A stretch of DNA of 64,000 nucleotides, taken from assembly GCA_016794145.1 (NCBI GenBank), contig JAEUKP010000010.1, positions 1 to 64,000 of the forward strand, read 5' to 3'. A program made the position numbers and the translations under genes. Positions 5,149 through 19,338 of the stretch are shown in pieces; position 1 is the first letter of the stretch, and each line of letters begins with the position of its first letter. Below the pieces are notes generated by a model, which saw nothing but the letters and a program-made list of their open reading frames with translations, had not been told where the DNA came from and searched no databases. The DNA comes from Alphaproteobacteria bacterium (GTDB lineage Bacteria; Pseudomonadota; Alphaproteobacteria; Micavibrionales; Micavibrionaceae).

Positions 5149-5721
5149 TTAAGGGTTGTAATGTCTTGTTGGTTTCTCTGGATAAACAGGTCCAGATAGC
5201 GGCGGAGTTATCGGAGGAGTTATAAGAGAATTTGTATCTATTTTCTTCTCTTCACTGCGTTTATAAACATAAATTCCCAGGACAGAAAGACCAATCCCCC
5301 AGATGGTTCCCAATGATTGAACGGCTTCAATGACCAAAGCGGCTTGTGTTGTTTCAAATACCATGACATACGCAATCGCAAACATCTGGGCGGCCCATGT
5401 GATTGCAATAATATAACCGAAAGTGGGTCGCATCCGCCGCACATATGGATCGTTTGAAGCAACCTCTGTTCGCAAGGATTCATTAATTTGTTGAATGGAG
5501 GTTTGGCGTTCTGCGGCCTCTAGCTCGTGCATTTTTTCGACATGACGGTTCAATTCGGCCAGTTGTTCCGGCGAAATTTCGCCTTTTCCAAAGGCCTCTA
5601 ATAATGCCCCAAGAGCACCTGAGGCGCCTTGTGCAACCGGCGTATTAACAGTTTTTAATCCATCGGCCAACCCCTTGATGAGAGCTGGCAATCCTGCTTG
5701 TAACAGAACGGGTAATACCAT
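5149..5721 (-). CDS. Phage/GTA-type 3TM holin
   Basis: This 190-residue protein has a coiled, charged middle region (ELNRHVEKMHELEAAERQTSIQQ). The conserved block RTEVASNDPYVRRMRPTFGY leads into hydrophobic segments at about 102-122 and 128-152, and the tail is Pro-rich. It fits the three-TM holin family described for gene-transfer release (GTA_holin_3TM). Such holins permeabilise the inner membrane so that the endolysin can reach the wall. It is the last gene of the cassette, directly after the endolysin. The assignment rests on motif and topology by eye. Confidence 0.75.
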   Translation of the reverse strand: MVLPVLLQAGLPALIKGLADGLKTVNTPVAQGASGALGALLEAFGKGEISPEQLAELNRHVEKMHELEAAERQTSIQQINESLRTEVASNDPYVRRMRPTFGYIIAITWAAQMFAIAYVMVFETTQAALVIEAVQSLGTIWGIGLSVLGIYVYKRSEEKKIDTNSLITPPITPPLSGPVYPEKPTRHYNP

Positions 5722-5744
5722 GATTTACAATCTTCCTATTCTAT

Positions 5745-6230
5745 CTATTCTGTAAGTGTATAAAAAATATGATGCCCAATACGCGCGGTTGGTTTCTGGC
5801 CTTTTGCCCAATGGGGAAGAATATTTAAGGTATGATAATGGGTCGCCCCTAGAGTCATATCTTTGATGAATCCCAAAACCGCACGTCGTGCAACACGGAG
5901 TCCTGTTGCAAAGTGCATATCATCTTCTGTAACCCCGATCAGCTTTTTGAAATTAGGGTCCTGTTTATTCCAGCAAGAAAACTGATATGGTTTTTGACAG
6001 ACTTGTAAAACCGTATTTCCCCACCAGTAGCCTTTATGACGTTTTGCAATCTCGACACGGTTCAGGATGACACAGGCAACAGCCTCCATTCCTGTGCTTC
6101 CTTCTCCTCTGGCCTCTCCCCATAGAGTACGTGCGAGAACATCGATTTCCAATTCCTTCAAAAATTCAGCAGACGATGAAGGTGGTACATTTTTGTTTTG
6201 TTGTGGTATCAACTTTGATTTTTGGTCCAT
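5745..6230 (-). CDS. SleB/CwlJ-type cell-wall hydrolase (endolysin)
   Basis: This 161-residue protein belongs to the Hydrolase_2 (SleB/CwlJ) family. It shows the LARTLWGEARGEGSTGMEAVACVILNR start with the catalytic-type glutamate of GEARGE, the QFSCW block and the ATHYHT segment. In alphaproteobacterial phages and GTAs, members serve as endolysins that cleave peptidoglycan. It has no signal peptide, so release would depend on the adjacent holin. It lies between the spanin-like gene and the holin in a tight lysis module. Confidence 0.88.
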   Translation of the reverse strand: MDQKSKLIPQQNKNVPPSSSAEFLKELEIDVLARTLWGEARGEGSTGMEAVACVILNRVEIAKRHKGYWWGNTVLQVCQKPYQFSCWNKQDPNFKKLIGVTEDDMHFATGLRVARRAVLGFIKDMTLGATHYHTLNILPHWAKGQKPTARIGHHIFYTLTE

Positions 6231-6232
6231 TT

Positions 6233-6493
6233 TTATTTCTCCCTTGTGTCTAATTTTGCTTCAATTCTCAATAGATGCGCGGTTAGGCGATTTTCAATGA
6301 TACGGATATCTCGGGTTTCCGCATATGTTCGTGCAACTTCGATGCGATGATCAGCCAATGATTGATTGATTTTCATCAGCCCGTTTTCGAATTCGCGGCG
6401 TGAATTCCAGATCAACCAGAATAAAGCAGATAGAATCGGCAATTCGATGACGGCGATCCACCATCCGAATAGGTCAATAAAACTTTTTTCCAT
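6233..6493 (-). CDS. Small membrane protein of the lysis module (possible i-spanin)
   Basis: This 86-residue protein has one membrane segment (residues about 9-28, FGWWIAVIELPILSALFWLIW) followed by a charged helix with heptad-like spacing (EFENGLMKINQSLADHRIEVARTYAETRDIRIIENRL). That topology is typical of inner-membrane spanins or accessory holins. The ATG at 6493 follows AGGAGAAACAAA; longer in-frame starts overlap the terminase gene without a ribosome-binding site. It sits between terL and the endolysin. The family is not recognised and the spanin role is inferred from position and topology. Confidence 0.6.
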   Translation of the reverse strand: MEKSFIDLFGWWIAVIELPILSALFWLIWNSRREFENGLMKINQSLADHRIEVARTYAETRDIRIIENRLTAHLLRIEAKLDTREK

Positions 6494-6503
6494 TTTGTTT
6501 CTC

Positions 6504-7982
6504 CTAAACATCAAAATCGGTTTTTGCTTTGACTTTTGGACGAACAGCAATCCATTTCCGGTTTTGATTTTCTTCGGCAGGGATTTTAGCGATTCGTACG
6601 GGTTGCAGGGACAAAGCACCTGCAACAGCATCCAGACAATCATCATGGCCACTCCGTTTATCGGGTCGCCAATCTTCCATTTCTTTTATAAATGGGGTTG
6701 TCAGGATGCTCCGGTGGACATGGATAGCGCGGGCAGCTAATGGTGCATCGAATGCTTCCATGATGCGGACAGATTTTATCTTGCGGCTTGTGATTTCCCG
6801 TATCCCGCACACAGCACCAGATACAGCCAATTCACGCCGCAAAATTCCAGGCAGAAATTTTCCCAACCCGTTTGTTTCGAGGGCAATAGATGGCAGGAAA
6901 AAGCGCTTTGCGATCTGTGCGACTTGTTCACATTGTTGTGTTGCCTCATCTTTATCGGAATGTGGTGATATTTTAATCTGGGCAAGATGGTGAATCCAAT
7001 ATTCTCCCATTTCATCCGTATAGACGATTGCCAGGATGCTGCGGTCTCCGTCAACTTTTCCGAATGCTGGATCCCACCATCCTGCCATGCTGACCAATTT
7101 TCGCCCACACAAAGATGACAAACGATTTCCATGCGCCTCGCGGTAGATGATATCTTCGTTATAAAATTGTAATGCAGACGGATCAAGCCGTGCATCACGG
7201 CTATTCATTGGTTGACAAAGCATCTGGCTTGCAAAATGCGCAGGGCCTGTTTTTTTTAGGATGTCATGAATCCTGTCAACTGTGAAACGCTCTGGCCAGA
7301 CACTTTGACCATCAATGGTTTGAATAGGTTGTACCAGACGGGTAAATCCATCAAGAAATAGAGTATCTTCGCCTAGTTCTTTGCGCGGTGTGTCTGCATA
7401 TATGGTATGCCAGCAATGCGGAGTCCCAACATATAGCAATGTGCCGCCCGGTGTCAGAATGTAATCTAGTTCCATCAATCGTTCACGCAGATCCATCCGT
7501 TTTTCCTGAGTATCCGATGTTTTTGGAACCTCGACATCATCACAAATAATCATATCTGCGCGTGTGCCTGTCAGATTTGTTGTGATTCCCTTGGCAAGCA
7601 TTGATGGATCCCGTAATTCCTGTGTTCGGTTCACGGTAAATTTTTCTGATCCCCATTGGTCTAGTTTTGTGGGTTTCAAATGTTTGGTCATTGGATGTTT
7701 TTCAATGATACGTTTCACATTCCTCACCATTTTACGGGCAAGAGCCAGATCAGCAGATAAGACCAATATTCTGGTATCTGGTGCATTCAGCAAAGACCAG
7801 GCGCAGAATACGCCGACCAATGTTGACTTTCCGCAAGACCGGAAAGCCATCAGCAGAAGTCGTGGATTGATGTTTGATGTCTCTGTCTGTAACCATTTGG
7901 CGATTTTCATGTGAACTTTTGGTGTCGTCTGGTTCTGACTGGCGTTCCATGTTGCCAAAAATAATGGAAAGGTGCATGTCAT
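6504..7982 (-). CDS. terL: Terminase large subunit (T7-like)
   Basis: This 492-residue DNA-packaging motor has an ATPase and a nuclease domain. The Walker A-like loop is AFRSCGKST (about 46-54), with Walker B MIICDDVE near 140. The RNase H-like nuclease begins at WWDPAFGK (about 302), and a further acidic pair lies in GHDDCLDAVAGAL. T7-like terminases normally have a GGG/RGG-rich loop, so the SCGKST loop is slightly unusual. The start overlaps the stop of the preceding small gene (ATGA), implying translational coupling. All catalytic acidic residues appear present, so it may be active. Confidence 0.9.
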   Translation of the reverse strand: MTCTFPLFLATWNASQNQTTPKVHMKIAKWLQTETSNINPRLLLMAFRSCGKSTLVGVFCAWSLLNAPDTRILVLSADLALARKMVRNVKRIIEKHPMTKHLKPTKLDQWGSEKFTVNRTQELRDPSMLAKGITTNLTGTRADMIICDDVEVPKTSDTQEKRMDLRERLMELDYILTPGGTLLYVGTPHCWHTIYADTPRKELGEDTLFLDGFTRLVQPIQTIDGQSVWPERFTVDRIHDILKKTGPAHFASQMLCQPMNSRDARLDPSALQFYNEDIIYREAHGNRLSSLCGRKLVSMAGWWDPAFGKVDGDRSILAIVYTDEMGEYWIHHLAQIKISPHSDKDEATQQCEQVAQIAKRFFLPSIALETNGLGKFLPGILRRELAVSGAVCGIREITSRKIKSVRIMEAFDAPLAARAIHVHRSILTTPFIKEMEDWRPDKRSGHDDCLDAVAGALSLQPVRIAKIPAEENQNRKWIAVRPKVKAKTDFDV

Positions 7983-8284
7983 TCGTCCTCCTCATAGGCA
8001 TTAATTTCTGCTTCGGCCTTGGTCATTAATCCTTGTAAATAATTTGCCTCTGTATCGCCGATGATTTCTTTGTCTGGAAGATCGGCCCACTTCGCAAGTT
8101 TGATTAAAAGTTCGATATGGCTGATAGCAACTTTTGCTTGTTTATGGTGTGATTCAAATCCTTTGGTATCAATGGGGGTCGCCATATGTGTACGATAGGA
8201 CGCAACGGCCAGTGAAATCGCTTCTGGAAGAAATTCTGCAATCTGCTGGCGTGTGGAATGTTCGATTGTAATGTTCTGGGTCAT
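7979..8284 (-). CDS. terS: Probable terminase small subunit
   Basis: This 101-residue protein is rich in helix-forming residues, with an acidic tail (AEAEINAYEEDE). Its position directly before terL with a 4-base overlap is where small terminase subunits lie in T7-like phages. The ATG at 8284 is preceded by AGAGGAACAGG; longer in-frame starts have no ribosome-binding site. No signature could be recognised by eye, so the call rests on size, position and coupling. It would select the DNA to be packaged, a key point if the element is a gene-transfer agent. Confidence 0.6.
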   Translation of the reverse strand: MTQNITIEHSTRQQIAEFLPEAISLAVASYRTHMATPIDTKGFESHHKQAKVAISHIELLIKLAKWADLPDKEIIGDTEANYLQGLMTKAEAEINAYEEDE

Positions 8285-8328
8285 CCTGTTCCTCTGGATT
8301 TTCTTTGGAGAGTTCATTAAATTTTTTC

Positions 8329-10353
8329 TTAAGGGTATCGGGCAATCACAAACCATTGACCGCCATCTGATACGACTGTGATAGATTGGAATTGTGCCGT
8401 CAGAGGTTGATTATATTGGTCTGGTCCGGCCCCCCCTTGAACGGTTACTGTAACGGCGTTGCTCGATACATCTGTTTTCTTGATGGTGATTTGTCGGCCG
8501 ATTGCCTTTTTCGAGTTCGCAGGTGGGAGACGCGCATTTAATGCGCCGCCAAAGCTTGATAACAAATACACATCAACGGCCATATCGATGTCGTATATTC
8601 CTGTTCCGTCATAAAACCGTGTGTTTCCGGGTGATCTGTTCGATGATAAAACAAACCATTCTGCCCCGTTTGACATGACCATCACGAAATCATTTTCGCC
8701 CCCCAGGAAATATGATGTGCCATCTGGTCCGGCGCCCCCACCATCTTCGGAAACGGTGATGATGTTCTTTGAACTATCGATCTTTTTAATGACCATCATT
8801 GCACCTGACGCAGTTGATGCGGCGGGTAGATTGATTGTCAATGCACCACTAAAGCTTGATACAAGATGGATAGAATGGGACAGGTCAAGTGTGAATGTTC
8901 CTGTTGTATCAATGTATTCTGTATCATATCGCTGTAATGTTGATGTCAGGTCATTGCAAATTGATTTCTGGAATTTGTTCTTATACGGATATCCTGCATT
9001 ATAGGCCGTGTATTGCCCACCGGAAAAATCCCAGATAGAGGCTCCGTCACTTGCCGATAAAAGATTATAAATTGCTGTTTCAATAGAGCCTGCATCAAGG
9101 CGGACATTCGGGACTCCACCATGTGATTCTGTGTATAAATTCACAAAGATTGTTTTGTTTGATCCTGGCCCACAGCGCACACAGGCTGTTGCCGTTGAAT
9201 TCAGATTGGCTTCAAAATCAGTAAAACTGTTATTGAATGACCCTTCCTCAACATAAACGCCATGGCCTGATGTCGTTGCGCCCAGTGAATAGACACGACA
9301 TTGTAAGAATCTATTTGCGTTGGGGGTATCACCCGCACCTGATCGTTTTAAATGAATCCCGTTGACGAATGGTTGTGCAACAAGAACCCTGGTAAAGTTA
9401 TTCCAGTAAACCGGTTTTGATGTTTCGTATCCACCATCCAGTAAAATACCGGTTTGGGCCTGCCATATAGAGATATCGACAATTGCACTATGAACACATG
9501 GGCCAGACAGGCCAGCAAATTTTAAACCAACTGTTCCACCTGATAATTTAAGGTTCGATAGGTGGTTATAACTTCCTGCGATATGAATGAGTGTGATAGG
9601 AAGAGTTGTTCTGATTTCTGATCCGTCACCGATACCAACCAGGCTGGATCCTGTTTCCAGTACCAAGGTTGATGATATGCGATATATGCCTGCAGGAACA
9701 AAAACGGATTTCGATGCGGCTAATGCATTTTGGAAGGCGACTGTATCATCTGCAACGCCGTCTCCGATGGCGCCGAAATCCTTCACAGAAATTATTTCTT
9801 TCAGTTTATCTCCTGTTGTCCTGGTGATGGCGCCTGTTCCTGCCGCTGTGAAACTTGGTTCTGCCATTGCACCTGTTAATGGGACAGCAATCATTTGCCC
9901 GTCACCGTCAAAACCCAACACTTTTCCGGCGCGAATATGTTTGTCGGGAATTATGTTTGAAAGTGGTGATTCATGCGGGTTGAACTGAAGCATTGAAGTC
10001 TGATCTTGTTCCAATTGCTGCAACCCTGCGACAATAGAATCCAATTCGGTATTAATTGTGGTTGCTGCAAAATCGCCCCCTTCAATAAAGTCAGTCAGAC
10101 GTTCGAATGGCATACGACGTTCGAGGGTTATCATTTGACCATCCAGTGGGGGGATATCGAATATAACAGAACCACCGGCTGTTTCACCTGGGCCGGTCAC
10201 ACTGAACCCACTATTTTGTAAAGCCCCATTGATGGATACAGATAGATCTTCGCTTGCAAAAATCGGGAATGGAAATTCAAAAATTGTTTGAATGCCATTT
10301 CCAACCAACCTGACAATTGGTGGAATATCGGGAATTTTAATATGACTTGTCAT
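8329..10353 (-). CDS. Tail fibre/tailspike with pectate-lyase-like beta-helix
   Basis: This 674-residue receptor-binding protein has three parts. Residues about 1-150 resemble the T7 fibre-type tail-attachment region (FEFPFPIFASEDLSVSINGALQNSG, MITLERRMPFERLTDF). Near residue 190 the Pectate_lyase_3 hallmark VKDFGAIGDGVADDTVAFQNAL opens a right-handed beta-helix. The C-terminal third carries two related modules, each with a VYLLSSF/IHLVSSFSGALTINLP-type strand and an ITIKKTD/MVIKKID strand, which look duplicated. Tailspikes of this type often cleave surface polysaccharide. It lies between the internal protein and the small terminase. The intact frame argues against long neutral decay. Confidence 0.88.
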   Translation of the reverse strand: MTSHIKIPDIPPIVRLVGNGIQTIFEFPFPIFASEDLSVSINGALQNSGFSVTGPGETAGGSVIFDIPPLDGQMITLERRMPFERLTDFIEGGDFAATTINTELDSIVAGLQQLEQDQTSMLQFNPHESPLSNIIPDKHIRAGKVLGFDGDGQMIAVPLTGAMAEPSFTAAGTGAITRTTGDKLKEIISVKDFGAIGDGVADDTVAFQNALAASKSVFVPAGIYRISSTLVLETGSSLVGIGDGSEIRTTLPITLIHIAGSYNHLSNLKLSGGTVGLKFAGLSGPCVHSAIVDISIWQAQTGILLDGGYETSKPVYWNNFTRVLVAQPFVNGIHLKRSGAGDTPNANRFLQCRVYSLGATTSGHGVYVEEGSFNNSFTDFEANLNSTATACVRCGPGSNKTIFVNLYTESHGGVPNVRLDAGSIETAIYNLLSASDGASIWDFSGGQYTAYNAGYPYKNKFQKSICNDLTSTLQRYDTEYIDTTGTFTLDLSHSIHLVSSFSGALTINLPAASTASGAMMVIKKIDSSKNIITVSEDGGGAGPDGTSYFLGGENDFVMVMSNGAEWFVLSSNRSPGNTRFYDGTGIYDIDMAVDVYLLSSFGGALNARLPPANSKKAIGRQITIKKTDVSSNAVTVTVQGGAGPDQYNQPLTAQFQSITVVSDGGQWFVIARYP

Positions 10354-10356
10354 TTT

Positions 10357-10827
10357 CTACCCCATTAGATCTGTGATAAAGCCCATTGCTGTTTTTTGCT
10401 TGAGCTGTTGTTTTTGCAGAAGGTTGAGTTGTGTTTGGTGTTTCAGATTTTGGTCAATTATGGTGTTATCCATTATTGTTTTGGATCGATTGTTCTGGCG
10501 TTCTATATCCGATGTTTCATTCAACCCCTGGAAAACAGAATCTGATGATCCGGTTACAGATCCTATCCCTTTGCCCCCAAAATTGGCCCGTTGGGTGGAT
10601 AGGGCATGACGTAATTTAGACAGCCGATCTGTTTCCTTCTGCTGCAGAACCAGTAAATTTGACTGTTTCTGCAAGGCCGCGCTTTGTTTTAATTGGGCGT
10701 TCTTGGCATTGAGGGCGTCCAGATCCCGCAATCGTTCAGAATTGGATAAAAAATATTGCCCGGCAGAGGCAATGGTTTTGACCCCGATATTTGCAATCGG
10801 GGCAACAACAGAACTTAAACTTCCCAT
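10357..10827 (-). CDS. Small internal virion/neck-type protein
   Basis: This 156-residue protein has an alanine/serine-rich N-terminus followed by a long helical region rich in Q, L and K (QLKQSAALQKQSNLLVLQQK and HQTQLNLLQKQQLKQK). Position between tail tubular B and the tailspike corresponds to the T7 internal virion protein gp14 slot. The much larger gp15- and gp16-like ejection proteins that normally follow are missing. Function is inferred from position and the coiled-coil character. Confidence 0.55.
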   Translation of the reverse strand: MGSLSSVVAPIANIGVKTIASAGQYFLSNSERLRDLDALNAKNAQLKQSAALQKQSNLLVLQQKETDRLSKLRHALSTQRANFGGKGIGSVTGSSDSVFQGLNETSDIERQNNRSKTIMDNTIIDQNLKHQTQLNLLQKQQLKQKTAMGFITDLMG

Positions 10828-10851
10828 GATGGTTTCTTTCTTTGATGGTTT

Positions 10852-12750
10852 TTATGAATTTGCAATCACTTCTGTATGAACAGATAGCAGGGCGAATGGT
10901 AACGGGAGACTTTGTTCAATTCGCCATAATGGTTTTGATGTATCGTTTTTCCATCCATAAGCCTTTACTTTTATATCGCCACTAATCAGCGGAGGCGGGG
11001 CATTCAAAAGGGTCGTTGTCCCAAAACTATTCAACGATATGCTTTTTAAACCACGACCTGTATCAAGTGTGAGTGCGGATGTGTTGCTGATCCGGAATGT
11101 TGCTTCAACCAATCTGACAGCGCGTGCATATCCGATCTCTGATATATTCGATGGTGGTAATGGCTCTATAATATGGGTAAATGGCAATCCTGCTTGCAGG
11201 TGATATGCGGGTTCGCCAATTGCAATCTCCCCGGATACGACACTTTGATCCGGTTGGACTTTACCATCTGCAACGATAGAGATGGTTCGCCCATTCAAAT
11301 GATCAAGACCAGACCATGTTGTTGTTGGGCTTGTATGATCACCGGATAAGGCAGAATCGAGGTGTAGATTGTCATCAACCAGCTCGATCATATAATCTTC
11401 ATTCCGTTTGATCAGTAAATATACACTATCGCCGACAACGGATACGGATATGACATTTCCTTGTGTTTCATGTAATGTCCATGCCGCCACTGCTTCGGCC
11501 CGATAAACTGTTAAGGTTGCAAATCTACCATCCGCCCGCACCAAGAATAATAATCGTCGTTTCTGGTCAAAATCCTGATCGACAGGTGTTGAAATAATAT
11601 GATGGGAAAGAAGGGCCAGATCTGTCGCCTGATACGCTTCTTCAATACTGGTATAAATAAATTCCCGCAATTCTTGCCCATTGCGCGCAACAAACAATGT
11701 GGCGCCATCTACATCAATCGGTGCGATGTAACGATCTACCATTGACCCCACGCGTGTTTGGCGTTTGATTTGTACATTTGCGGGCGTCAAAGGATCCCCT
11801 GTGACCATCCATTCAGATCCGCTTGTAAAGATTTGTAAGTGGCGCCCAGAGAAAACACCTCGGATCGCGTTGACTTGATCGGAGAAAATCCCGAATTCAA
11901 TAGCTTCGGCATCAAGCCCTGTTCCCAGGTCGAAATTAAATAAATCTCCTGACTGCGACATCCAGATACGGTTCGGTAAATCACGACTGCCGCCGATGAT
12001 TAATCTGTCCTGATGAAAGGCTGTTGTTGTTGGATACCCTCTGACGGCTGAGAAAGATTGCTCTTCCCAATCAACTGTTGCTGTTGTTGATAATAAGGTC
12101 TGAACAACTGTTGCAGTGACAACGGTTCCCGATGCAACGCTTGTAATGTGGACTTCTTTGTTTGAAATACGCAAACGTGTTCCTGTGTGTCCTGATAGAA
12201 AAACGGGTGCGGATGCTGTGACTGTAATCGTTCCGGATACGCCACTTGGTGTTAGGGTGACGGTATTATTGGCAAATTTGTACATTGGTTGATGGATCCG
12301 CCCAGCGGTCGTGTAAAATTCCCAATCGACAATTGACCATGCACCTAAGCCTGAGCGGATCAAACGGCGTGGTGGATAATTGGGGTGCGTTAACAAGAGC
12401 GTATCGGCACTTTGTGTCCACGCAAGTTGCTGGATATCATCTTCAACCCATGGTGTTGTGAGTGTTGTTTCCAGTGTATCTCCTGCGTAGATTGATAATT
12501 TAAGATGCGTCAGGACAAGAAGATATGTTTGTTCTGAATTGAATTCGAATGCCATCATGCGGCCTTTTCCATCTGCGGTATCAATATATCTCAACCCGGA
12601 CCGGCGAATAATTCCACCTGTTGGCTGAATAAAGACGTTCCGAAGCTTTAAAGCTCCGTTCTCGTAAGCGTTCAGATCTCCGCGTCCTAAGAGATCCGAA
12701 GATACCTCGCCGGATGTAAAGGTTGTTTTGATTGTTGGAATACGGGTCAT
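10852..12750 (-). CDS. Tail tubular protein B / nozzle (T7 gp12-like)
   Basis: This is a roughly 632-residue, beta-rich protein with the opening typical of podovirus tail nozzles: FTSGEVSSDLLGRGDLNAYENGALKLRNV, then PTGGIIRRSGLRYI. Further family features are LTHPNYPPRRLIR and AFHQDRLIIGGSRDLPNRIWMSQSGD. It would form the tail tip through which DNA leaves. The ATG at 12750 is preferred because AAGAGAT lies upstream; a longer start overlaps the preceding gene. It follows tail tubular A in the conserved order. Confidence 0.85.
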   Translation of the reverse strand: MTRIPTIKTTFTSGEVSSDLLGRGDLNAYENGALKLRNVFIQPTGGIIRRSGLRYIDTADGKGRMMAFEFNSEQTYLLVLTHLKLSIYAGDTLETTLTTPWVEDDIQQLAWTQSADTLLLTHPNYPPRRLIRSGLGAWSIVDWEFYTTAGRIHQPMYKFANNTVTLTPSGVSGTITVTASAPVFLSGHTGTRLRISNKEVHITSVASGTVVTATVVQTLLSTTATVDWEEQSFSAVRGYPTTTAFHQDRLIIGGSRDLPNRIWMSQSGDLFNFDLGTGLDAEAIEFGIFSDQVNAIRGVFSGRHLQIFTSGSEWMVTGDPLTPANVQIKRQTRVGSMVDRYIAPIDVDGATLFVARNGQELREFIYTSIEEAYQATDLALLSHHIISTPVDQDFDQKRRLLFLVRADGRFATLTVYRAEAVAAWTLHETQGNVISVSVVGDSVYLLIKRNEDYMIELVDDNLHLDSALSGDHTSPTTTWSGLDHLNGRTISIVADGKVQPDQSVVSGEIAIGEPAYHLQAGLPFTHIIEPLPPSNISEIGYARAVRLVEATFRISNTSALTLDTGRGLKSISLNSFGTTTLLNAPPPLISGDIKVKAYGWKNDTSKPLWRIEQSLPLPFALLSVHTEVIANS

Positions 12751-12778
12751 GATTCTATCTCTTTTCTCATCTCTTTTT

Positions 12779-13348
12779 CTAATCTCTGGCATCAATCAAG
12801 CTGAAATTTTCGATACGATTTGGGCTGTCTTGTTGTGAGTCGATCTGCCGCGCGCGTGTGAATTCTTGATCTGCTTGTTTACTCAGGATATCTGCACGTG
12901 ATGTGTTTTCGGTAAGAGGTAGACAGAATTCAGCGGCCAGTCGTGTCATCAGCAGTGAATCAAAATACGGTGGGAAATTGCTTTCATCCGGCCTAAAGAT
13001 ATAGGTTAGTAGGACTTCACTTGCATCTGTATGAAGTTCATTCCGTGATAGACGGTAATTGATTCCTCGTCCACGACCTCCAACTCCTGCCGATATCGCA
13101 CGAAGAAAATCATTGGGCAGTTGATAAGCATATTGATAATCCCCGTTCGGTGGTGTTGCCAATCGGGTCAGTAAAACCTGACGTGTTGCAAAGTTCCATG
13201 GAAACGATGATAAAACGGCATCCCGTAAAGGTGCATAAAGCAGGCCTGCGATTTCTGATTCTGTCGTTCCATCAGAGAACGAGGTGATAGGGTGAACCCC
13301 TATGCGTGCAAGAGCGCGGGCACAAAGCCCAATATCATCTAAAGCCAT
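12779..13348 (-). CDS. Tail tubular protein A / adaptor (T7 gp11-like)
   Basis: This 189-residue protein has the head-to-tail adaptor pattern: CARALARIGVHPITSF, then YAPLRDAVLSSFPWNFATRQVLL, and a region with YQYAYQLPNDFLRAI. These match tail tubular protein A / gp11-like adaptors that sit between portal and nozzle. It is the first gene after the strong terminator at 13385-13428, so tail genes may be expressed at a lower level than capsid genes by readthrough. Confidence 0.85.
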   Translation of the reverse strand: MALDDIGLCARALARIGVHPITSFSDGTTESEIAGLLYAPLRDAVLSSFPWNFATRQVLLTRLATPPNGDYQYAYQLPNDFLRAISAGVGGRGRGINYRLSRNELHTDASEVLLTYIFRPDESNFPPYFDSLLMTRLAAEFCLPLTENTSRADILSKQADQEFTRARQIDSQQDSPNRIENFSLIDARD

Positions 13349-13371
13349 TTTAAAAATCTCCGGTCTGTGTA

Positions 13372-13428
13372 AAGGAAAAAAGGGGGAATGACCTGTGGCC
13401 CGTTGCAGGCTGAAACACAGGTCATTCC
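13372..13428 (-). terminator. Strong intrinsic terminator after the capsid genes
   Basis: A perfect 13-base stem, GGAATGACCTGTG (13385-13397) with its complement at 13416-13428, is followed on the minus strand by CCCCC and a run of T. It separates capsid and small capsid-associated genes from tail genes, as the Tphi terminator follows gene 10 in T7. It would reduce but not abolish tail-gene transcription, giving stoichiometry control. Confidence 0.8.
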
Positions 13429-13456
13429 GGTGTCAGTACGTGGTGGTAGGTGTGTA

Positions 13457-13699
13457 TTACGCGGTGAAGACCGCAACAGTCACAGCAGAACCAGTGTTTG
13501 CTGTTACGATATAGAAGACTGTTGACGGTACGCCACCCGTACTGAGATTACAGATCAGTAAGTCATTGACGCGAAGCATCGATGCTGCTGAATTGAAATA
13601 ACCTGCGGTGACCACTGATGAATCAGTGGTTGTGTAGTGCCACAGGGTGAAATTATTGGCATAGGCCAATACACTCAGGTCTTTTGAAGCAAAAGCCAT
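13457..13699 (-). CDS. Small capsid-associated (decoration/head fibre) protein
   Basis: This 80-residue protein is rich in aliphatic, Thr and Ser residues with predicted beta-strands (LSVLAYANNFTLWHYTTTDSS, then TVFYIVTANTG). It lies directly downstream of the capsid gene and just before the terminator, the usual place for a highly expressed decoration or head protein. It looks intact. No specific family name is claimed. Confidence 0.6.
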   Translation of the reverse strand: MAFASKDLSVLAYANNFTLWHYTTTDSSVVTAGYFNSAASMLRVNDLLICNLSTGGVPSTVFYIVTANTGSAVTVAVFTA

Positions 13700-13756
13700 A
13701 ATTTAAACTCCTTGGTAATTAAGTGATAAGTGAATAGGTCTTGTGTTCAACGATGA

Positions 13757-14587
13757 CTAGTCTGGTGTTTCATCGCATCCAATGACAACAATCCCTGATC
13801 CATCGATAAGGGCTGCGCCTTGACTCATCATATTGTTGACAAAGTGGGCGGCCCGATCACCGTGCCACGTGATGTCTGACTGTACATCAGATCCAGACGC
13901 ATGCCCGATGGCTGTTTTGTGGAACCAGAAACAGGAACGAATATCATTCCCGTCAATAGGCAGGCCAGACATCGGGATCCAGGTTGTCCCCAGCCATTTT
14001 TTCGCTTGCATATTTTTATATGGGAGTTCGTCAGATCCAACATATTCGGAACTTGCAAATTCAGGGACCTTTAACAGTTCAGACCATTGTTTCCATCCAA
14101 TAACGGCAAAACGTTGGCCATCATCTGGCACATCTGCACCACCCAATTTTTCAAAGGCTAATAAAACCTTATCACGGGTCAAGCCAACGTTCCCGTCCGG
14201 AACCGTCAGTGTAGAAGCAGAGGCAAGCGCACTGATAATCAGATCATCTGTTTTCCGCCCGAGGGCATAGGCTCCGGCATTGGCAATGACGGCACGCTCA
14301 TCATGATTGATTTTTAATTCAGCAAGTTTGTCGACCCAGTCACCGGCATAGAAATCCTGTAACGTGCATTCAACAGATGTGTGGGACACATTCATAACCG
14401 GAATCATGCCGTTTGCTGATTTTGTTGATGCCGTTCCTTTTCCAACCTTTTGGAAAACAACGGATGATCCTTTTACGTTATTAATTGTTCTAACCGCAAT
14501 GCGCAATTTAGAACCTTGTCTTTGATAGGCTTCATGAACTTCGCGTTCAAACTGCTTTACAAAGGCGATATTTATATCTGTACTCAT
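13757..14587 (-). CDS. Major capsid protein
   Basis: This 276-residue protein occupies the capsid slot between scaffold and adaptor genes. It has a helical N-terminus (FVKQFEREVHEAYQRQGSKLR), a strand region with VMNVSHTSVECTLQDFYAGDWVDKL, a helix with DERAVIANAGAYALGRKTDDLIISAL and the late FWFHKTAIGHASG segment. These are features of phage capsid proteins of the HK97-like fold in temperate podoviruses. No delta domain or protease is present, consistent with a separate scaffold. The 262 bases upstream probably hold its own promoter, since the PilZ gene interrupts the operon. Confidence 0.82.
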   Translation of the reverse strand: MSTDINIAFVKQFEREVHEAYQRQGSKLRIAVRTINNVKGSSVVFQKVGKGTASTKSANGMIPVMNVSHTSVECTLQDFYAGDWVDKLAELKINHDERAVIANAGAYALGRKTDDLIISALASASTLTVPDGNVGLTRDKVLLAFEKLGGADVPDDGQRFAVIGWKQWSELLKVPEFASSEYVGSDELPYKNMQAKKWLGTTWIPMSGLPIDGNDIRSCFWFHKTAIGHASGSDVQSDITWHGDRAAHFVNNMMSQGAALIDGSGIVVIGCDETPD

Positions 14588-14816
14588 GTTAATCCTTTTT
14601 TGGGGTTAAAGTTAATTTTTCCCGGATCGGTTATCGCTAGGCGGCCAAGCAGGGCGGGGGGTAGACGGGCGGGCATAAGGTTACATACTTTGTTATGGGC
14701 CCCTATGTTCTCTGCCAGATTTCTTTTTCATAAAATAAAGCTTGATTTTTGGTTTGGTATCAGCTAAATATTTCATGTGTAATAGTTTTTAGTGCTTTGG
14801 GTGTGTCGTATAACAT

Positions 14817-14833
14817 TGTCATAACTATTGACA
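14817..14833. promoter_or_regulatory. Palindromic operator candidate between capsid and PilZ genes
   Basis: TGTCA-N7-TGACA lies just upstream of the PilZ ribosome-binding site and about 230 bases from the capsid start. A TATAAC that could be a -10 element lies at its left shoulder. The position suits a regulator of the PilZ gene, the capsid gene or both. The binding factor is unknown. Confidence 0.35.
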
Positions 14834-14849
14834 CAACTTGGAGCTTTTT

Positions 14850-15248
14850 ATGTTGCAGAACATCATGACTGCGTTTGGTTTAAAAAATTCAGTAACCGAT
14901 GATGGAACTGGGGGATTTTCATCCCGCAGATCTTACCCTCGTCGTGGTTGCGACCAATGTGTGGGTTTCCTTGATGGCAAAGCGCATCCCGTCCTGGATT
15001 GGAGTCCGGGAGGGCTACGCGTCTTCGCTGATCCACGCCCGTTACAAATTGGTCAAGAAATGGAGATTGAATTAAAATTCCATCTTCGTGATCAATTGGT
15101 CAATGTAAAGCAGAGGGCGAGGATTGTTCGTAAATCAACAGAATCTGTCTCGTTTCAATTTGCACCCGTCAGTAACGATATTCGTAAAACATTCCAAACT
15201 GTTATTGACGATTTTAATGCCCGTGAATTTTCAGGTTCACAGGCTTAA
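14850..15248 (+). CDS. PilZ-domain protein encoded inside the phage cassette
   Basis: This 132-residue protein carries a PilZ domain, the c-di-GMP receptor module. It has the arginine motif RRSYPRR (about 24-30), and the second motif appears as DWSPGG in place of the usual D/N-x-S-x-x-G. Later strands (QEMEIELKF, KQRARIVRKSTESVSFQF) complete the barrel. The ATG at 14850 follows TTGGAG with a six-base gap. It is the only gene of the cassette on the plus strand, sitting between scaffold and capsid. This is how morons or regulatory inserts sit in phages. It may couple capsid expression or release to c-di-GMP; that is inference. Confidence 0.8.
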   Translation: MLQNIMTAFGLKNSVTDDGTGGFSSRRSYPRRGCDQCVGFLDGKAHPVLDWSPGGLRVFADPRPLQIGQEMEIELKFHLRDQLVNVKQRARIVRKSTESVSFQFAPVSNDIRKTFQTVIDDFNAREFSGSQA

Positions 15249-15278
15249 AATTCGAAGGGGCCAGAGATTATGCTCTGT

Positions 15279-16013
15279 TTATTTTCCTGCGTATAATCTT
15301 TGGAAACCTTCGCTGACTTTTGCAATGAAAGCAGGATCGCGATCTCTCCAGTATTTAGGACTTTGCATCATATTGCGGAGGCCGGTTTCGTCCAGCCCGT
15401 CAAATGAGCCGCTTCCGTCTTTGGCGATGGGGCTATTTGATCCCATTTTCATCATATTATAAAGGGCCATAACGCCATCATAGGAACAGCATAGGCCTTC
15501 ATATGCAGATTCTGGAAGGTTTTTTGTTCCAAATTCTTGTAATTGTTTCGAAATAATACTCCATTTTTCTGATCCTCCGAATTCTTTGACCAGACGTTCC
15601 AATTCCCGGTCGGCTTGGAATTCTGCTGCCATTTCTAACAGCATTGGAACTAGCTTTTCTGTGGCGAGGTCATATATTTCTTGGACTTGCTCATTTGTAA
15701 ATCCTTTCGCGTGGAGTCGGGCATTCAGTTCGGGATCAATATCGATGACATCGCTTTGTAATTTAAGCTCATAGAGATCTGCTGTTTCAGGGAGACCAAG
15801 AATCTTTTGCAATCGTTTTCTGTCATCATCTGTTTCAGGAAGTGGAACCATTTTCGAAAGACGTTTTTCAAGAGCAAGGTAAGAGTTAAGAAGGGCATCA
15901 ATGCGAATTTCTTTTTTATCTGCATCCCAGAATTTATCGGGAACAGATGTCGGCTTATCGGGCTCGATAGGGTTTTGTGTATCTGTTTCGGCAATTAAAA
16001 GATTATCAGTCAT
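15279..16013 (-). CDS. Scaffolding / capsid assembly protein
   Basis: This 244-residue, acidic, helix-rich protein lies between portal and capsid genes, the position of T7 gp9-type scaffolds. It starts with a disordered region (NLLIAETDTQNPIEPDKP) and then KFWDADKKEIRIDALLNSY, a motif common in podovirus assembly proteins, followed by helices up to a C-terminal YWRDRDPAFIAKVSEGFQRLY. It would direct procapsid formation. The region 15249-15278 separates it from the convergent PilZ stop. Confidence 0.78.
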   Translation of the reverse strand: MTDNLLIAETDTQNPIEPDKPTSVPDKFWDADKKEIRIDALLNSYLALEKRLSKMVPLPETDDDRKRLQKILGLPETADLYELKLQSDVIDIDPELNARLHAKGFTNEQVQEIYDLATEKLVPMLLEMAAEFQADRELERLVKEFGGSEKWSIISKQLQEFGTKNLPESAYEGLCCSYDGVMALYNMMKMGSNSPIAKDGSGSFDGLDETGLRNMMQSPKYWRDRDPAFIAKVSEGFQRLYAGK

Positions 16014-16036
16014 GGTTTAGTCTCCTTTAGAATGAA

Positions 16037-17500
16037 TTAGAGTGGTGAATCGGACAAGTCTTGTTTTAAAAATTCTGGGACACCCAACATTTCAGTCAGA
16101 TATGCCATAAGGGCAGAGCGATCAATTTTTTCTGAAATCTCTGGTCCTAAAGAATGCGCAGCCTGAACCCATCCCAATGCGTTTTGGACGTTTCGGGATG
16201 ATTGGGACCTCGCAAGTGGTGATCTATGGTCGATTGAAACAATTCGACCATCTAATGGTAGATCCGGAATGGCTCCTCTGTGCCTTAGAATGCTGTAGGC
16301 TTTCTGGATAATAGGATTCAACAATTCAACCTGCAATCGTCCGAATGTTGCACCTAATAGCATTGTCATTTCATCAGATCGTGTTGTGATCTCTGTTGCT
16401 GTAATTTTCCTGCCATTCGATATTTGTGGTAATCTATCGACCAAAAGCGCGTGTCGGATGCGGTTCCGAAGGTCCTGTAAAACCAATTGTGACACATCAA
16501 AACGGGCTGGCATTTCGAGTGGTGTTAGACCTTTTGATCCGACAGCTTTTGGAATAATCGCCCCTGGAACAAGTTCGATATTCGCAGTGTTCAAGACACC
16601 GTCATCTTCTGCCTGCCAGATCCCTGTCACAGAAATAGATGCATTTTTTAAGATCAATTCGACAACTTTGTTCGCTGTTTTGATGTCTGGAAGCGTCTTC
16701 ATGATAGGGGATCTTCCGTATATTTCACCAGGGGATTTCATCCATCTAAAATTGATAAAAGGCGAGTGCGTTAAGTCTGTCTGGTAAATAATTTCGTCAT
16801 AATCAATTGAAAACAGGCAGAATAGATATCCGTTTCCATTGATGGATTCTGTTATGCTTTCAATCAAATCGAATTTTTCATCAGGATGGGTGTTTCCTTT
16901 TTGTAGGATCGATACAGGAATAATCGCCCCCTTAAAACGCATCAAGATCTGAGACAATGTCAAAGAGACTTTTCTAAAAACTGTGTCCAGCTTTCCGCGG
17001 CGGCCTTCTTCCAGGACCACATCGCTTAATGGAATCGCCGTAAACTGGAATGCAGATAATTCTCCTGGTTGTGCTTCTTCAAAAGCCAATGACGCGGTTC
17101 CTGCAACAACAAGATCAAGGAAGCATTGATGGATCTCGACAATAAAGTTAGATTGATCAAAGTGAGCTTGCATTAATCTGCTTGTTTTCTCTAAGGTTGG
17201 CGTGATCGCCTTTGCTTCGTCTATGCTAAGGTCTGTCCCTGGCTTTAGACCGAACCACGGTGTTAAAGGCGGCGTTAAATTGCCGAGCAGAAGACTTGCT
17301 AATTGATCGACACCATCCAGCGCTGTTGCATCATAAAGCCTTTCGCTGCGACGGTTTCCGGATGCATATTGGCCTGTTAACTGGCCTCGTTGTGGCAGTG
17401 CATAATCGTAACAATCCTGCCATAGGCTATGCCACAAATTATGTTTTGATTTTGCCCCATGGAATCTATGAAGGAGGATTTGATAAGTTTCATCTGACAT
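16037..17500 (-). CDS. Portal protein (T7-like head-tail connector)
   Basis: This 487-residue protein has the podovirus connector signature. The N-terminus SLWQDCYDYALPQRG is followed by RRSERLYDATALDGVDQLASLL, then TPPLTPWFGLKPG, and later GEIYGRSPIMKTLPDIKTANKVVELIL and the ITATEITTRSDEM segment. The portal forms the dodecameric ring for DNA entry and exit. It follows three small genes at the head of the cassette with a 3-base gap to the upstream short gene. Confidence 0.9.
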   Translation of the reverse strand: MSDETYQILLHRFHGAKSKHNLWHSLWQDCYDYALPQRGQLTGQYASGNRRSERLYDATALDGVDQLASLLLGNLTPPLTPWFGLKPGTDLSIDEAKAITPTLEKTSRLMQAHFDQSNFIVEIHQCFLDLVVAGTASLAFEEAQPGELSAFQFTAIPLSDVVLEEGRRGKLDTVFRKVSLTLSQILMRFKGAIIPVSILQKGNTHPDEKFDLIESITESINGNGYLFCLFSIDYDEIIYQTDLTHSPFINFRWMKSPGEIYGRSPIMKTLPDIKTANKVVELILKNASISVTGIWQAEDDGVLNTANIELVPGAIIPKAVGSKGLTPLEMPARFDVSQLVLQDLRNRIRHALLVDRLPQISNGRKITATEITTRSDEMTMLLGATFGRLQVELLNPIIQKAYSILRHRGAIPDLPLDGRIVSIDHRSPLARSQSSRNVQNALGWVQAAHSLGPEISEKIDRSALMAYLTEMLGVPEFLKQDLSDSPL

Positions 17501-17503
17501 AGG

Positions 17504-17752
17504 TTATTCTCCCAATAAAGATTTGCGATGGGGTCCGGTTTCCGTTCCGGACAATATCCCACGGAAACTTGTATACACAGTACCTAATGCACTGCGGGAC
17601 CTGCGTAGAATATTTTCAGCGCGGGTTTTTGCAATTTCTTCCGGGGTTGGCTCGACTGGTGTTGGTGTATCAATAGGAGATGTCGTGACCGGTGTCACAG
17701 CAGCAGGTGATGATACAGTTGGAATTTTTGGGCGTGATGTGACGCTTCCCAT
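17504..17752 (-). CDS. Short Pro/Thr-rich phage-cassette protein
   Basis: This 82-residue protein has a low-complexity N-terminal half (VTPVTTSPIDTPTPVEPTPEE) and a more ordered C-terminus (ENILRRSRSALGTVYTSFRGIL then KSLLGE). The ending FRGIL---KSLLGE recurs in small genes next to portal genes in alphaproteobacterial podoviral clusters as I remember them, but I cannot name the family. It lies 3 bases from the portal start and 1 base from the upstream gene. Confidence 0.6.
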   Translation of the reverse strand: MGSVTSRPKIPTVSSPAAVTPVTTSPIDTPTPVEPTPEEIAKTRAENILRRSRSALGTVYTSFRGILSGTETGPHRKSLLGE

Positions 17753-17753
17753 T

Positions 17754-18134
17754 TTATAATATCCTTTCGTGGTCTGTTTTTAAGAATCTGTATAATTGCC
17801 AGGGGGTTAAGATAAATGGATTGTGTACCCCCAAAGTACGCTTGACGGCCTCGACGCATGTAAAGAAACAAGGCCATAAAGGTTTCAATTCTGGCGATTT
17901 TCCGAAGAAGCGTAAAACCAGGTCACCCTGGCTTTCCAACCATCGTCGGAGGTCAAAACCATCCGGTAAATCGAGTCGCATCATTTCTGTTTTATGGGCC
18001 AGCGGGTCAAAACTGATCCAGACATCTGCAAATCGTAAAATTATAAAGCAATGACGGAATCCACGGCGCAAAAATTTAAGCCACCACAAATCCGTTTGGT
18101 CTGTAAAGACCACAAGAATTTCATCGGGCATCAT
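17754..18134 (-). CDS. Conserved cassette protein, possibly a permuted papain-like fold
   Basis: This is a 126-residue protein counted from the double ATG at 18129-18134. It has MPDEILVVFTDQTDLWWLKFL and RGFRHCFIILRFADVW, then later FFTCVEAVKRTLGV. A histidine in a GFRHCF strand followed about 60 residues on by a cysteine at the start of a helix is the order seen in permuted NlpC/P60, LRAT or YiiX-type folds. A hydrolase or host-wall role is therefore possible but unproven. It overlaps the upstream gene by 14 bases. Confidence 0.55.
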   Translation of the reverse strand: MMPDEILVVFTDQTDLWWLKFLRRGFRHCFIILRFADVWISFDPLAHKTEMMRLDLPDGFDLRRWLESQGDLVLRFFGKSPELKPLWPCFFTCVEAVKRTLGVHNPFILTPWQLYRFLKTDHERIL

Positions 18135-18534
18135 TATTCGAAACCAATTTGATCCAATGAGGACGGATAACAATGCGTTTGATAACAAGAGCATCTTCAA
18201 GTTTCGAGAGAGCCTCTTTCCAAAGGCCATACGCACGAATTTCTTTTTGTCTTCGTGGATCGGGTGATAATAGTCTCTGACCGTAATGACGAAGAACCAT
18301 CACATGATCCATTGTGACAGTTCTTGCGCGGTAAAGACGTTCCAAAGCTTTGATAATATCAACAGGTTCACAAGGTCTTGGATATAAGCCTGCCCCTGCT
18401 GTTATCCGCGCTCCCTCATTCCGCGCTGTTTGTGCTTGAATAAACCAGAACCAGGCTTCCTCGGCTGATTTAAATGGAACAGTGTCATCAGAACTCGCCT
18501 TTGGCGATCCTGTTATCGTTTTAAATATGGTCAT
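18121..18534 (-). CDS. First gene of the phage cassette, uncharacterised
   Basis: This 137-residue basic protein contains EEAWFWFIQAQTARNEGARI, PRPCEPVDIIKALERLYRA and VMVLRHYGQRL. These form a consistent helical pattern that looks like a conserved alphaproteobacterial family linked to podoviral gene sets. I cannot assign a function. As the first gene after the SOS-overlapped promoter it could be an early regulator or DNA-binding factor. The start is 66 bases downstream of the predicted transcription start. Confidence 0.6.
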   Translation of the reverse strand: MTIFKTITGSPKASSDDTVPFKSAEEAWFWFIQAQTARNEGARITAGAGLYPRPCEPVDIIKALERLYRARTVTMDHVMVLRHYGQRLLSPDPRRQKEIRAYGLWKEALSKLEDALVIKRIVIRPHWIKLVSNNDAR

Positions 18535-18589
18535 TTCGATTTTCCCAGAAGATGTTATGGAACACTCAACCTATCAAAAAGTTACAATT

Positions 18590-18604
18590 GTTCCCTTTAT
18601 GTTC
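18590..18604. promoter_or_regulatory. SOS (LexA) box GTTC-N7-GTTC
   Basis: GTTC at 18590-18593, seven bases, then GTTC at 18601-18604 match exactly the LexA operator known from alphaproteobacteria. It lies in the intergenic region between the phage cassette and the XRE-S24 gene. It overlaps the predicted transcription start of the minus-strand cassette promoter. LexA binding there should repress the cassette until DNA damage. Confidence 0.75.
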
Positions 18605-18607
18605 TCA

Positions 18608-18636
18608 TTGTTAGTCTTGTTTTGCGGGGTTGTCAA
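18608..18636 (-). promoter_or_regulatory. Promoter of the phage cassette
   Basis: On the minus strand a perfect -35 TTGACA (18631-18636) is followed after 17 bases by TAACAA (18608-18613) as a weak -10. Transcription would begin near 18600, inside the SOS box. A weak -10 plus operator overlap fits a promoter kept silent until derepressed. Confidence 0.55.
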
Positions 18637-18693
18637 GAAAAATATGATTCTTTTCCTATATCTAGGATTAAAGACTTATGAGATAATAAATCC

Positions 18694-19338
18694 ATGATGC
18701 TGACACATGATACAATATGGCAGGCTATTGACCGCCTTGCGCAGAGTTCGGGATACTCAACTTCTGGTCTTGCCAAGAAAGCAGGTCTTGATCCCACATC
18801 TTTTAATCGAAGCAAGCGAATTGGTGCGGATGGTAAGCCCCGATGGCCATCAACCGAAAGTATTTCAAGAATTCTGGCGGCCACCGGGGCCACGATGTCT
18901 GATTTTATCCAGTTGATAGGGCATGCTGCGCCTGTTTCGCCGGTAGAATCTCGTATTCCTGTTCTTAATTTTTCTCAAGCTGTGCGGAAAGAGTTTTTTG
19001 ATGATCATGGGTATCCTTTAGGAGAATCCTGGGATCATATTCATTTCCCAAACGCACCCGAAGAGGTGTTGGATGTTTATGCGCTTGAAGTTTCAGGAAC
19101 CTCTTTCCTTCCTTTTTTTCGTGAAGGAGATCGTTTGATTATTGCGCCTCACGCTCCTTTGCGCCGTGGAGATCGGGTAGTGATATGTACAATTTCCGGT
19201 AAACTTTTAGCCAAGGAACTCAATCGACAGACGGCAACAAAAATCGAGGTCAAATCACTCTCTTCCGATGAGGCATCTTTGAGTTTTTCACCCAAAGACA
19301 TTAGCTGGATTTCGAGGATTGTTTGGGTTAGTCAGTGA
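18694..19338 (+). CDS. XRE-S24 (LexA/CI-like) regulator divergent from the phage cassette
   Basis: This 214-residue protein has an N-terminal XRE-type helix-turn-helix (about 10-70, GYSTSGLAKKAGLDPTSFNR) and a C-terminal S24 peptidase-like domain. The active serine lies in EVSGTSFLPFFREGD and the lysine in GKLLAKELN, so self-cleavage is possible. It may be the cassette repressor, as in CI systems. However, similar stand-alone XRE-S24 regulators occur on many alphaproteobacterial chromosomes, so it could be an older host gene. There is no clear ribosome-binding site; two ATGs (18694 and 18697) are possible. Confidence 0.85.
   Translation: MMLTHDTIWQAIDRLAQSSGYSTSGLAKKAGLDPTSFNRSKRIGADGKPRWPSTESISRILAATGATMSDFIQLIGHAAPVSPVESRIPVLNFSQAVRKEFFDDHGYPLGESWDHIHFPNAPEEVLDVYALEVSGTSFLPFFREGDRLIIAPHAPLRRGDRVVICTISGKLLAKELNRQTATKIEVKSLSSDEASLSFSPKDISWISRIVWVSQ

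Follow-up and report, generated by a model that had tools for sequence, protein, structure and literature searches.

We describe a set of 16 minus-strand genes (positions 5149-18534), hereafter the cassette, in a 64,000-nucleotide stretch of DNA, hereafter the window, from contig JAEUKP010000010.1 of an alphaproteobacterium of the family Micavibrionaceae. In our assessment the cassette very likely derives from an independently domesticated podovirus that is inherited vertically and maintained by its hosts as a gene-transfer agent (GTA). Three of the features by which a GTA is recognized are found here: a chromosomal cluster of structural, packaging and lysis genes, an absence of genes for self-replication or integration, and vertical inheritance accompanied by purifying selection. 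An original prediction, drawn from the letters of the window, had proposed either a podovirus-derived GTA or a domesticated particle, and this proposal is supported by synteny, single-copy occurrence, a phylogeny congruent with that of the hosts and the ratio of nonsynonymous to synonymous substitution rates (dN/dS).

Composition of the cassette

Matches to Pfam and PHROGs identify the cassette as a complete T7/HTVC010P-like podovirus particle and lysis set, as had been predicted. The earlier count of seventeen minus-strand frames has to be corrected to 16, with a PilZ gene on the plus strand between the capsid and scaffold genes. Two members lay beyond the earlier list, namely this opposite-strand PilZ gene (14850-15248) and a divergent S24 repressor (18694-19338), and alignments with relatives indicate that the starts listed for TerS, the gene after TerL, g2 and tail protein B were too long. 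Searches against Pfam and PHROGs found no integrase, polymerase or replication genes within the cassette, and a repeat search around it yielded internal chance repeats only and no att-type flanking direct repeat, again in agreement with the prediction. Large ejection proteins are missing from the cassette, with one weak candidate of 156 residues (g11). The neighbours are housekeeping genes, and the host genome comprises 1.9 Mb in 24 contigs, of which the window is contig C2. The features are as follows.

5149..5721, minus strand: holin, GTA_holin_3TM (PF11351, 9e-10); syntenic in relatives
5745..6230, minus strand: endolysin, Hydrolase_2/SleB-like (PF07486, 3e-18; phrog_938)
6233..6511, minus strand: g15, small conserved gene after TerL (phrog_29007, 7e-18); start 6511 set from homologue alignments
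6504..7982, minus strand: TerL, terminase large subunit (phrog_38, 2.5e-79); motor and nuclease residues intact
7979..8284, minus strand: probable TerS, a helical hairpin directly upstream of TerL (AlphaFold model)
8329..10353, minus strand: tailspike with pectate-lyase fold (PF12708, 6e-13)
10357..10827, minus strand: g11, small, possible internal virion (ejection) protein (phrog_418, E=0.004, weak)
10852..12750, minus strand: tail tubular protein B-like, TTPB (phrog_376, 5e-145); start from relatives
12779..13348, minus strand: tail tubular protein A-like, TTPA (phrog_394, 3e-49)
13457..13699, minus strand: g8, small conserved head gene (phrog_18004, 3e-11); after the capsid gene in nearly all loci
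13757..14587, minus strand: major capsid protein (PF19821, 3e-76)
14850..15248, plus strand: PilZ-domain protein (PF07238, 9e-9); c-di-GMP-binding motifs kept
15279..16013, minus strand: scaffold/capsid assembly protein (PF05396, 1e-8)
16037..17500, minus strand: portal, the head-tail connector (PF12236, 1e-127)
17504..17752, minus strand: g3, small fast-evolving gene; syntenic, no family match
17754..18131, minus strand: g2, small gene also in related podophages; start inferred
18121..18534, minus strand: g1, first cassette gene, helical fold (model of mean predicted local distance difference test, pLDDT, 87); absent from phage records
18590..18604, minus strand: LexA box GAACATAAAGGGAAC, at the start of the cassette promoter
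18608..18636, minus strand: promoter with -35 TTGACA (18636-18631), 17-base spacer and -10 TAACAA (18613-18608)
18646..18667, minus strand: operator-like inverted repeats TCCTA-N4-TAGGA / AGGA-N6-TC, directly upstream of the -35
18694..19338, plus strand: S24/LexA-like divergent repressor, S24rep, RogA-like (PF00717, 3e-12); adjoins g1 in nearly all loci

Distribution and chromosomal position

Portal matches of at least about 50% identity were taken as cassette-type, a few at 23-32% being ordinary phage portals. A portal match was present in 68 of 95 relatives, mostly in single copy. The closest named relative is an alphaproteobacterial metagenome-assembled genome with a portal 87% identical, followed by Micavibrio sp. 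and other alphaproteobacterial genomes assembled from metagenomes; the label Micavibrionales, as used here, follows the names of such relatives. Cassette-type portals were additionally found in all 45 Azospirillum species tested, in Magnetospirillum, Paramagnetospirillum, Telmatospirillum, Caenispirillum and Terasakiella, and in 55 genomes of a class sample of 387. Patchy presence, which had been named as a sign against domestication, was looked for, and presence proved near-universal in the groups tested; no integrase-bearing version of the cassette was seen among the relatives examined.

The order shared among loci runs from the divergent S24rep through g1, g2, g3, portal, scaffold, PilZ (on the opposite strand), capsid, g8, TTPA, TTPB, g11, tailspike, TerS, TerL, g15 and endolysin to the holin. 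Apart from small losses or truncation at contig ends, it recurs in 12 relatives representing many genera, and most of 80 named loci show it over the stretch that they cover. The expectation of synteny was upheld for gene order but not for htpX/prlC as the common site, given that most of the family carries the cassette beside NAD kinase and purC. Up to 38 other Micavibrionales loci have NAD kinase next after the S24 repressor and, in most cases, then purC, Grx4 glutaredoxin, rodA, mrdA and mreC. The window and its closest relative are the only ones in which htpX borders the cassette. The usual Micavibrionales site is fixed, and the genus of the window carries the cassette elsewhere, at htpX/prlC.

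Split cassettes occur in some Rhodospirillales-type hosts. For instance, the sole capsid gene lies 315 kb from the sole portal gene in Azospirillum TSH64, and about 130 kb from it in A. halopraeferens. A cassette split over hundreds of kb could not be packaged as a viral genome, and GTA genes are known to be dispersed (PMC12946183).

A separate observation concerns insertions into the portal gene. In four Azospirillum species (L257 in G515, L258 in G541, G520 and G537) an insert of roughly 16-17 kb interrupts the gene at about residues 291-299, and in L257 the 13-base repeat GCATCTGGCAGGC flanks the insert. The inserts differ, one carrying a lambda-type terminase and portal and another an HK97-type portal, and small phage-like elements seem to use the cassette portal gene as an integration site. 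In a fifth Azospirillum genome (G509, C1:599496-647077), about 46 kb of DNA interrupt the portal at another point (residues 218/247).

Portal homologues are also kept in very small alphaproteobacterial genomes (G181, G280, G425 and G485, all 0.9-Mb genomes of f64, and G359). G181 retains pieces of capsid, tail and TerL as well, g1 lies far from the portal in G181 and G359, and the repressor matches in these small genomes are short stretches covering the helix-turn-helix (HTH) only. This retention in reduced genomes suggests either function or an altered use.

Vertical descent and selection

Portal and RpoB trees were compared across 49 genomes, with proteins picked by best match to the window protein. 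The trees have 29 of 46 splits in common, where label shuffling yields 0.14 on average and 2 at most, and no strong conflict was found between the 17 strongly supported portal splits and the 24 strong RpoB splits. Portal and RpoB distances are likewise correlated (Mantel r 0.78 overall), and distances for capsid, tail, scaffold, g1 and S24 proteins covary with those of the portal. The portal tree does not resolve the deep branching order within Micavibrionales. The test of vertical phylogeny that the original prediction had called for thus returned a portal tree congruent with that of host RpoB, for a cassette mostly in single copy.

Values of dN/dS, calculated by the Nei-Gojobori method on unsaturated pairs, were mostly 0.01-0.2 across the cassette, with 0.008-0.05 for the capsid in three pairs and 0.04-0.08 for TerL. 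Some pairs gave higher values for g3, TerS and g15, and one Azospirillum pair had raised values for capsid (0.28), scaffold (0.33) and tailspike (0.75). Overall, they lie far below 1, as anticipated for domestication. At the level of sequence, these comparisons demonstrate a cassette that is vertically inherited, almost always single-copy and under strong purifying selection.

The same results bear on the alternative that the original prediction had named, a decayed or cryptic prophage that is functionless and kept by chance. The lack of integrase and replication genes and the split or frameshifted portals of a few relatives speak for it, but it is contradicted by the low dN/dS seen in several pairs, by frames and gene order that are intact across dozens of genera, by the host-congruent tree and by the conservation of regulatory DNA. 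Given that neutral remnants would not persist with open frames at 55-60% protein identity, we regard decay as highly improbable.

Relation to phages

Against 50,697 phage records, the portal of the window reached 36% identity at best, bar one 5-kb record, and TerL about 30%. Among the plasmids listed no cassette-type copy was seen, only distant phage-type portals of at most 30% identity. The nearest phages are HTVC010P-like Pelagibacter phages, EXVC031P Hodr and the IMG/VR contigs L040, L041 and L046, which share ancestry and core virion genes with the cassette. In the three contigs, g2, portal, scaffold, capsid, g8 and the tail genes are arranged as in the cassette, with identities of 23-51%, but g1, S24rep and PilZ are lacking, and the related podophage genomes and contigs are about 34-39 kb long.

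This shared order from g2 through portal, scaffold and capsid to the tail genes could be taken to indicate a functional temperate podovirus lineage that repeatedly inserts at preferred sites. A temperate podovirus is, however, a complete phage genome with a replication and integration module, which the cassette is not. There is no integrase or att site, the portal tree follows RpoB, the cassette is split over hundreds of kb in some hosts, and the portal stays at or below 36% identity in phage and plasmid records, save for the single unverified faecal contig at 50%. We consider such a lineage hardly credible.

Two observations concern entries filed as viral. The exceptional 5-kb record, MT838907.1 (L261), is an unverified human-faecal 'Bacteriophage sp.' entry with a portal 50% identical to that of the window, and is probably a fragment of a gut alphaproteobacterial GTA. 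Furthermore, the IMG/VR contigs L021-L037 are of the cassette type, most with S24rep and/or g1, and are probably host GTA loci rather than viruses, so that many viral contigs in public catalogues may be of this nature.

Packaging, tailspike and accessory genes

The claim that catalytic motifs are intact holds for TerL: across 22 loci, conservation is 97% or higher for the Walker A and Walker B residues and for the acidic residues of the nuclease, with G51 K52 S53, D148 D149 E151, D304, E369 and D447/D448/D451 invariant. The probable TerS is modelled as a helical hairpin without a DNA-binding domain or HTH (AlphaFold, pLDDT 86), and a fold search against the PDB gave no significant or informative match. 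A small terminase without a DNA-binding domain is a proposed GTA hallmark, and gp1 of RcGTA lacks an HTH (PMC6854486). The apparent absence of a sequence-reading domain from the modelled protein seems to fit non-specific packaging.

Packaging is also where a further alternative is best weighed, namely that the cassette is a capsid donor or defective helper for one particular mobile element or plasmid residing at another place in the genome. Replication genes could indeed lie elsewhere, and small phage-like elements are found inside the portal gene of four Azospirillum species. On the other hand, these elements interrupt the portal instead of exploiting it, no partner element was seen to recur, inheritance is vertical across orders, and the probable TerS, as modelled, has no sequence-reading domain. 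A helper role is, in our view, very unlikely.

The tailspike is usually the most variable gene of a phage. Here it is conserved over its full length at 57-69% across genera and, in Micavibrionales, to the same degree as the portal. Together with the lysis set, this conserved tailspike could serve a domesticated particle with another job, such as killing competitors or prey or acting as a lysis or DNA-release device, and several hosts are Micavibrio-like predators. However, the cassette is equally fixed in the non-predators Azospirillum and Magnetospirillum, and it keeps the portal, both terminase candidates and the catalytic residues of TerL, although bacteriocin-like particles need no packaging motor. 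We therefore judge another job unlikely and favour a GTA.

Two accessory genes deserve mention. The first, g1, has no match in the 50,697 phages and no Pfam, PHROG or PDB relative in family, fold and solved-structure sequence searches, and its invariant residues are W27, W29, R52 P53 C54 and W104. The GTA-type portal is present in 41 of the 47 class genomes that have g1 (Fisher 9e-37), and this LexA-boxed first gene is a good candidate for a regulator or assembly factor. The second, the PilZ gene, sits between scaffold and capsid in Micavibrionales-type loci only and keeps its cyclic di-GMP (c-di-GMP) motifs RxxxR and [DN]xSxxG in 38 of 39 cases.

Regulation

A LexA-type box, GTTCCCTTTATGTTC, occupies 18590-18604, and the 64 kb contain just one other box of this kind. 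In 51 of 72 loci, against 0.4 expected, the DNA separating S24rep from g1 holds an exact alphaproteobacterial LexA box. The promoter is recognizable across loci by a conserved -35 TTGAC, an A/T-rich -10 and the LexA box directly downstream, and an AGGA...TCCT-like inverted repeat is conserved directly upstream of the -35. If up to one mismatch is allowed, 48 of 66 loci contain GGAA-N4-TTCC where 3.7 would be expected; its exact form is rare (2/66).

These elements recall RogA, the 213-residue LexA-like GTA repressor of Caulobacter, which binds a gafYZ promoter region featuring GGAA-N4-TTCC repeats and whose homologues are reportedly overrepresented in Rhodospirillales and some other groups (PMC9632790). 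The repressor of the window has 214 residues and no significant match in a sequence search of solved structures; class genomes that carry the RcGTA marker encode homologues of about 50% identity. We infer that S24rep is a relative of RogA and, from the LexA box and this divergent repressor, predict that the cassette is under the control of host regulators.

Comparison with known gene-transfer agents

RcGTA (Rhodogtaviriformidae, type I) resembles the cassette in being a vertical, mostly single-copy virion-plus-lysis cluster without replication genes in Alphaproteobacteria, with a TerS lacking an HTH, as the modelled probable TerS here seems to, and a RogA-like repressor in the same genomes. 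It differs in its particle, which is siphovirus-like (HK97 capsid, long tail, GTA_TIM protein), whereas the cassette is of the T7/HTVC010P-like podovirus type. None of the 55 class genomes with the GTA-type portal carries the marker GTA_TIM (PF13547), and neither does the genome of the window (G000). Portal and GTA_TIM were thus in no case found together among the 387 class genomes (0 of 40, against 5.7 expected; p about 0.0015, phylogeny ignored). This lack of overlap agrees with published predictions, in which RcGTA-like GTAs number zero in Rhodospirillales (PMC6821227).

The other two comparisons are by description. FpGTA of Faecalibacterium, reported in 2026 as the first podovirus-like GTA, likewise has a podovirus-like operon and a TerS without an obvious DNA-binding domain, is encoded in two loci and forms particles with about 9 kb of host DNA (PMC12946183); its host is a Firmicute, whereas the cassette is alphaproteobacterial and inherited across several orders. 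BaGTA (Bartogtaviriformidae), an alphaproteobacterial GTA of second independent origin, has a core of about 14 kb, but it comes from Bartonella and has a replication-origin link and an HK97 capsid (PMC9662315), while the cassette has neither of these and a PF19821 capsid. In mostly open-access literature, we found no podovirus-type GTA in Alphaproteobacteria, nor one in Micavibrio.

Particles of A. lipoferum and Azospirillum B510 with about 10 kb of random host DNA were called GTAs after mitomycin C induction, according to the citation of Boyer 2008 in PMC3899980. That later paper credits the Azospirillum particles to RcGTA-like prophage genes on sequence resemblance and does not consider the podovirus cassette (PMC3899980). 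Since the portal is present in every Azospirillum species tested, the cassette is another candidate source of these particles, and perhaps a better one. In its fullest form, which we consider probable, our proposal is that the cassette represents a third, independent alphaproteobacterial GTA lineage, of podovirus type, which predates the split between Micavibrionales and Azospirillum/Magnetospirillum, is guarded by the RogA family of repressors, to which the unrelated RcGTA type is also subject, replaces the RcGTA type across much of the class and is the true source of the A. lipoferum 10-kb particles.

Caveats, proposed mechanism and significance

Several points weigh against a domesticated GTA. 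In every host the cassette is known from its genes alone, and no particle, packaged DNA or transfer has been tied to it. It is missing or broken in G012, G017, G018, G034 and G041. The exact LexA box is absent in 21 loci, mostly Magnetospirillum and some Azospirillum, and the operator of the window itself falls outside one mismatch of GGAA-N4-TTCC. Additionally, S24rep was likened to RogA through the published description of the latter, and TerS is identified by position and shape only.

With these points in mind, a GTA cycle can be proposed. The S24 repressor and LexA would hold the cassette silent until it is switched on in some cells by DNA damage, a trigger suggested by the LexA box, or by starvation or a c-di-GMP signal, whose input through PilZ in Micavibrionales is speculation. 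The terminase, with a small subunit seemingly devoid of a sequence-reading domain, would then fill heads with arbitrary pieces of the chromosome, and holin and endolysin would lyse the producer cell. The conserved tailspike would bind kin and the DNA be delivered at least to the periplasm, from where ComEC, encoded in 19 of 19 relatives tested, would probably import it. RcGTA combines periplasmic delivery with competence uptake, and by analogy the cassette particles may do the same; with uptake through ComEC, the missing large ejection proteins would be dispensable.

The known alphaproteobacterial GTAs derive from long-tailed phages or are confined to Bartonella. If our reading is true, a podovirus GTA older than its host orders exists in culturable Azospirillum, Magnetospirillum and Micavibrio, and unrelated phages have been captured more than once for the same job under related repressors. 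The purpose of GTAs would then become testable by comparing two independent captures.

A minor observation concerns the left part of the window, where a ribosomal protein L10 gene lies at 1888-2376 (NCBIfam, 2e-42). Given that rpoB is on contig C14, this genome may have lost the usual rplJL-rpoBC linkage.

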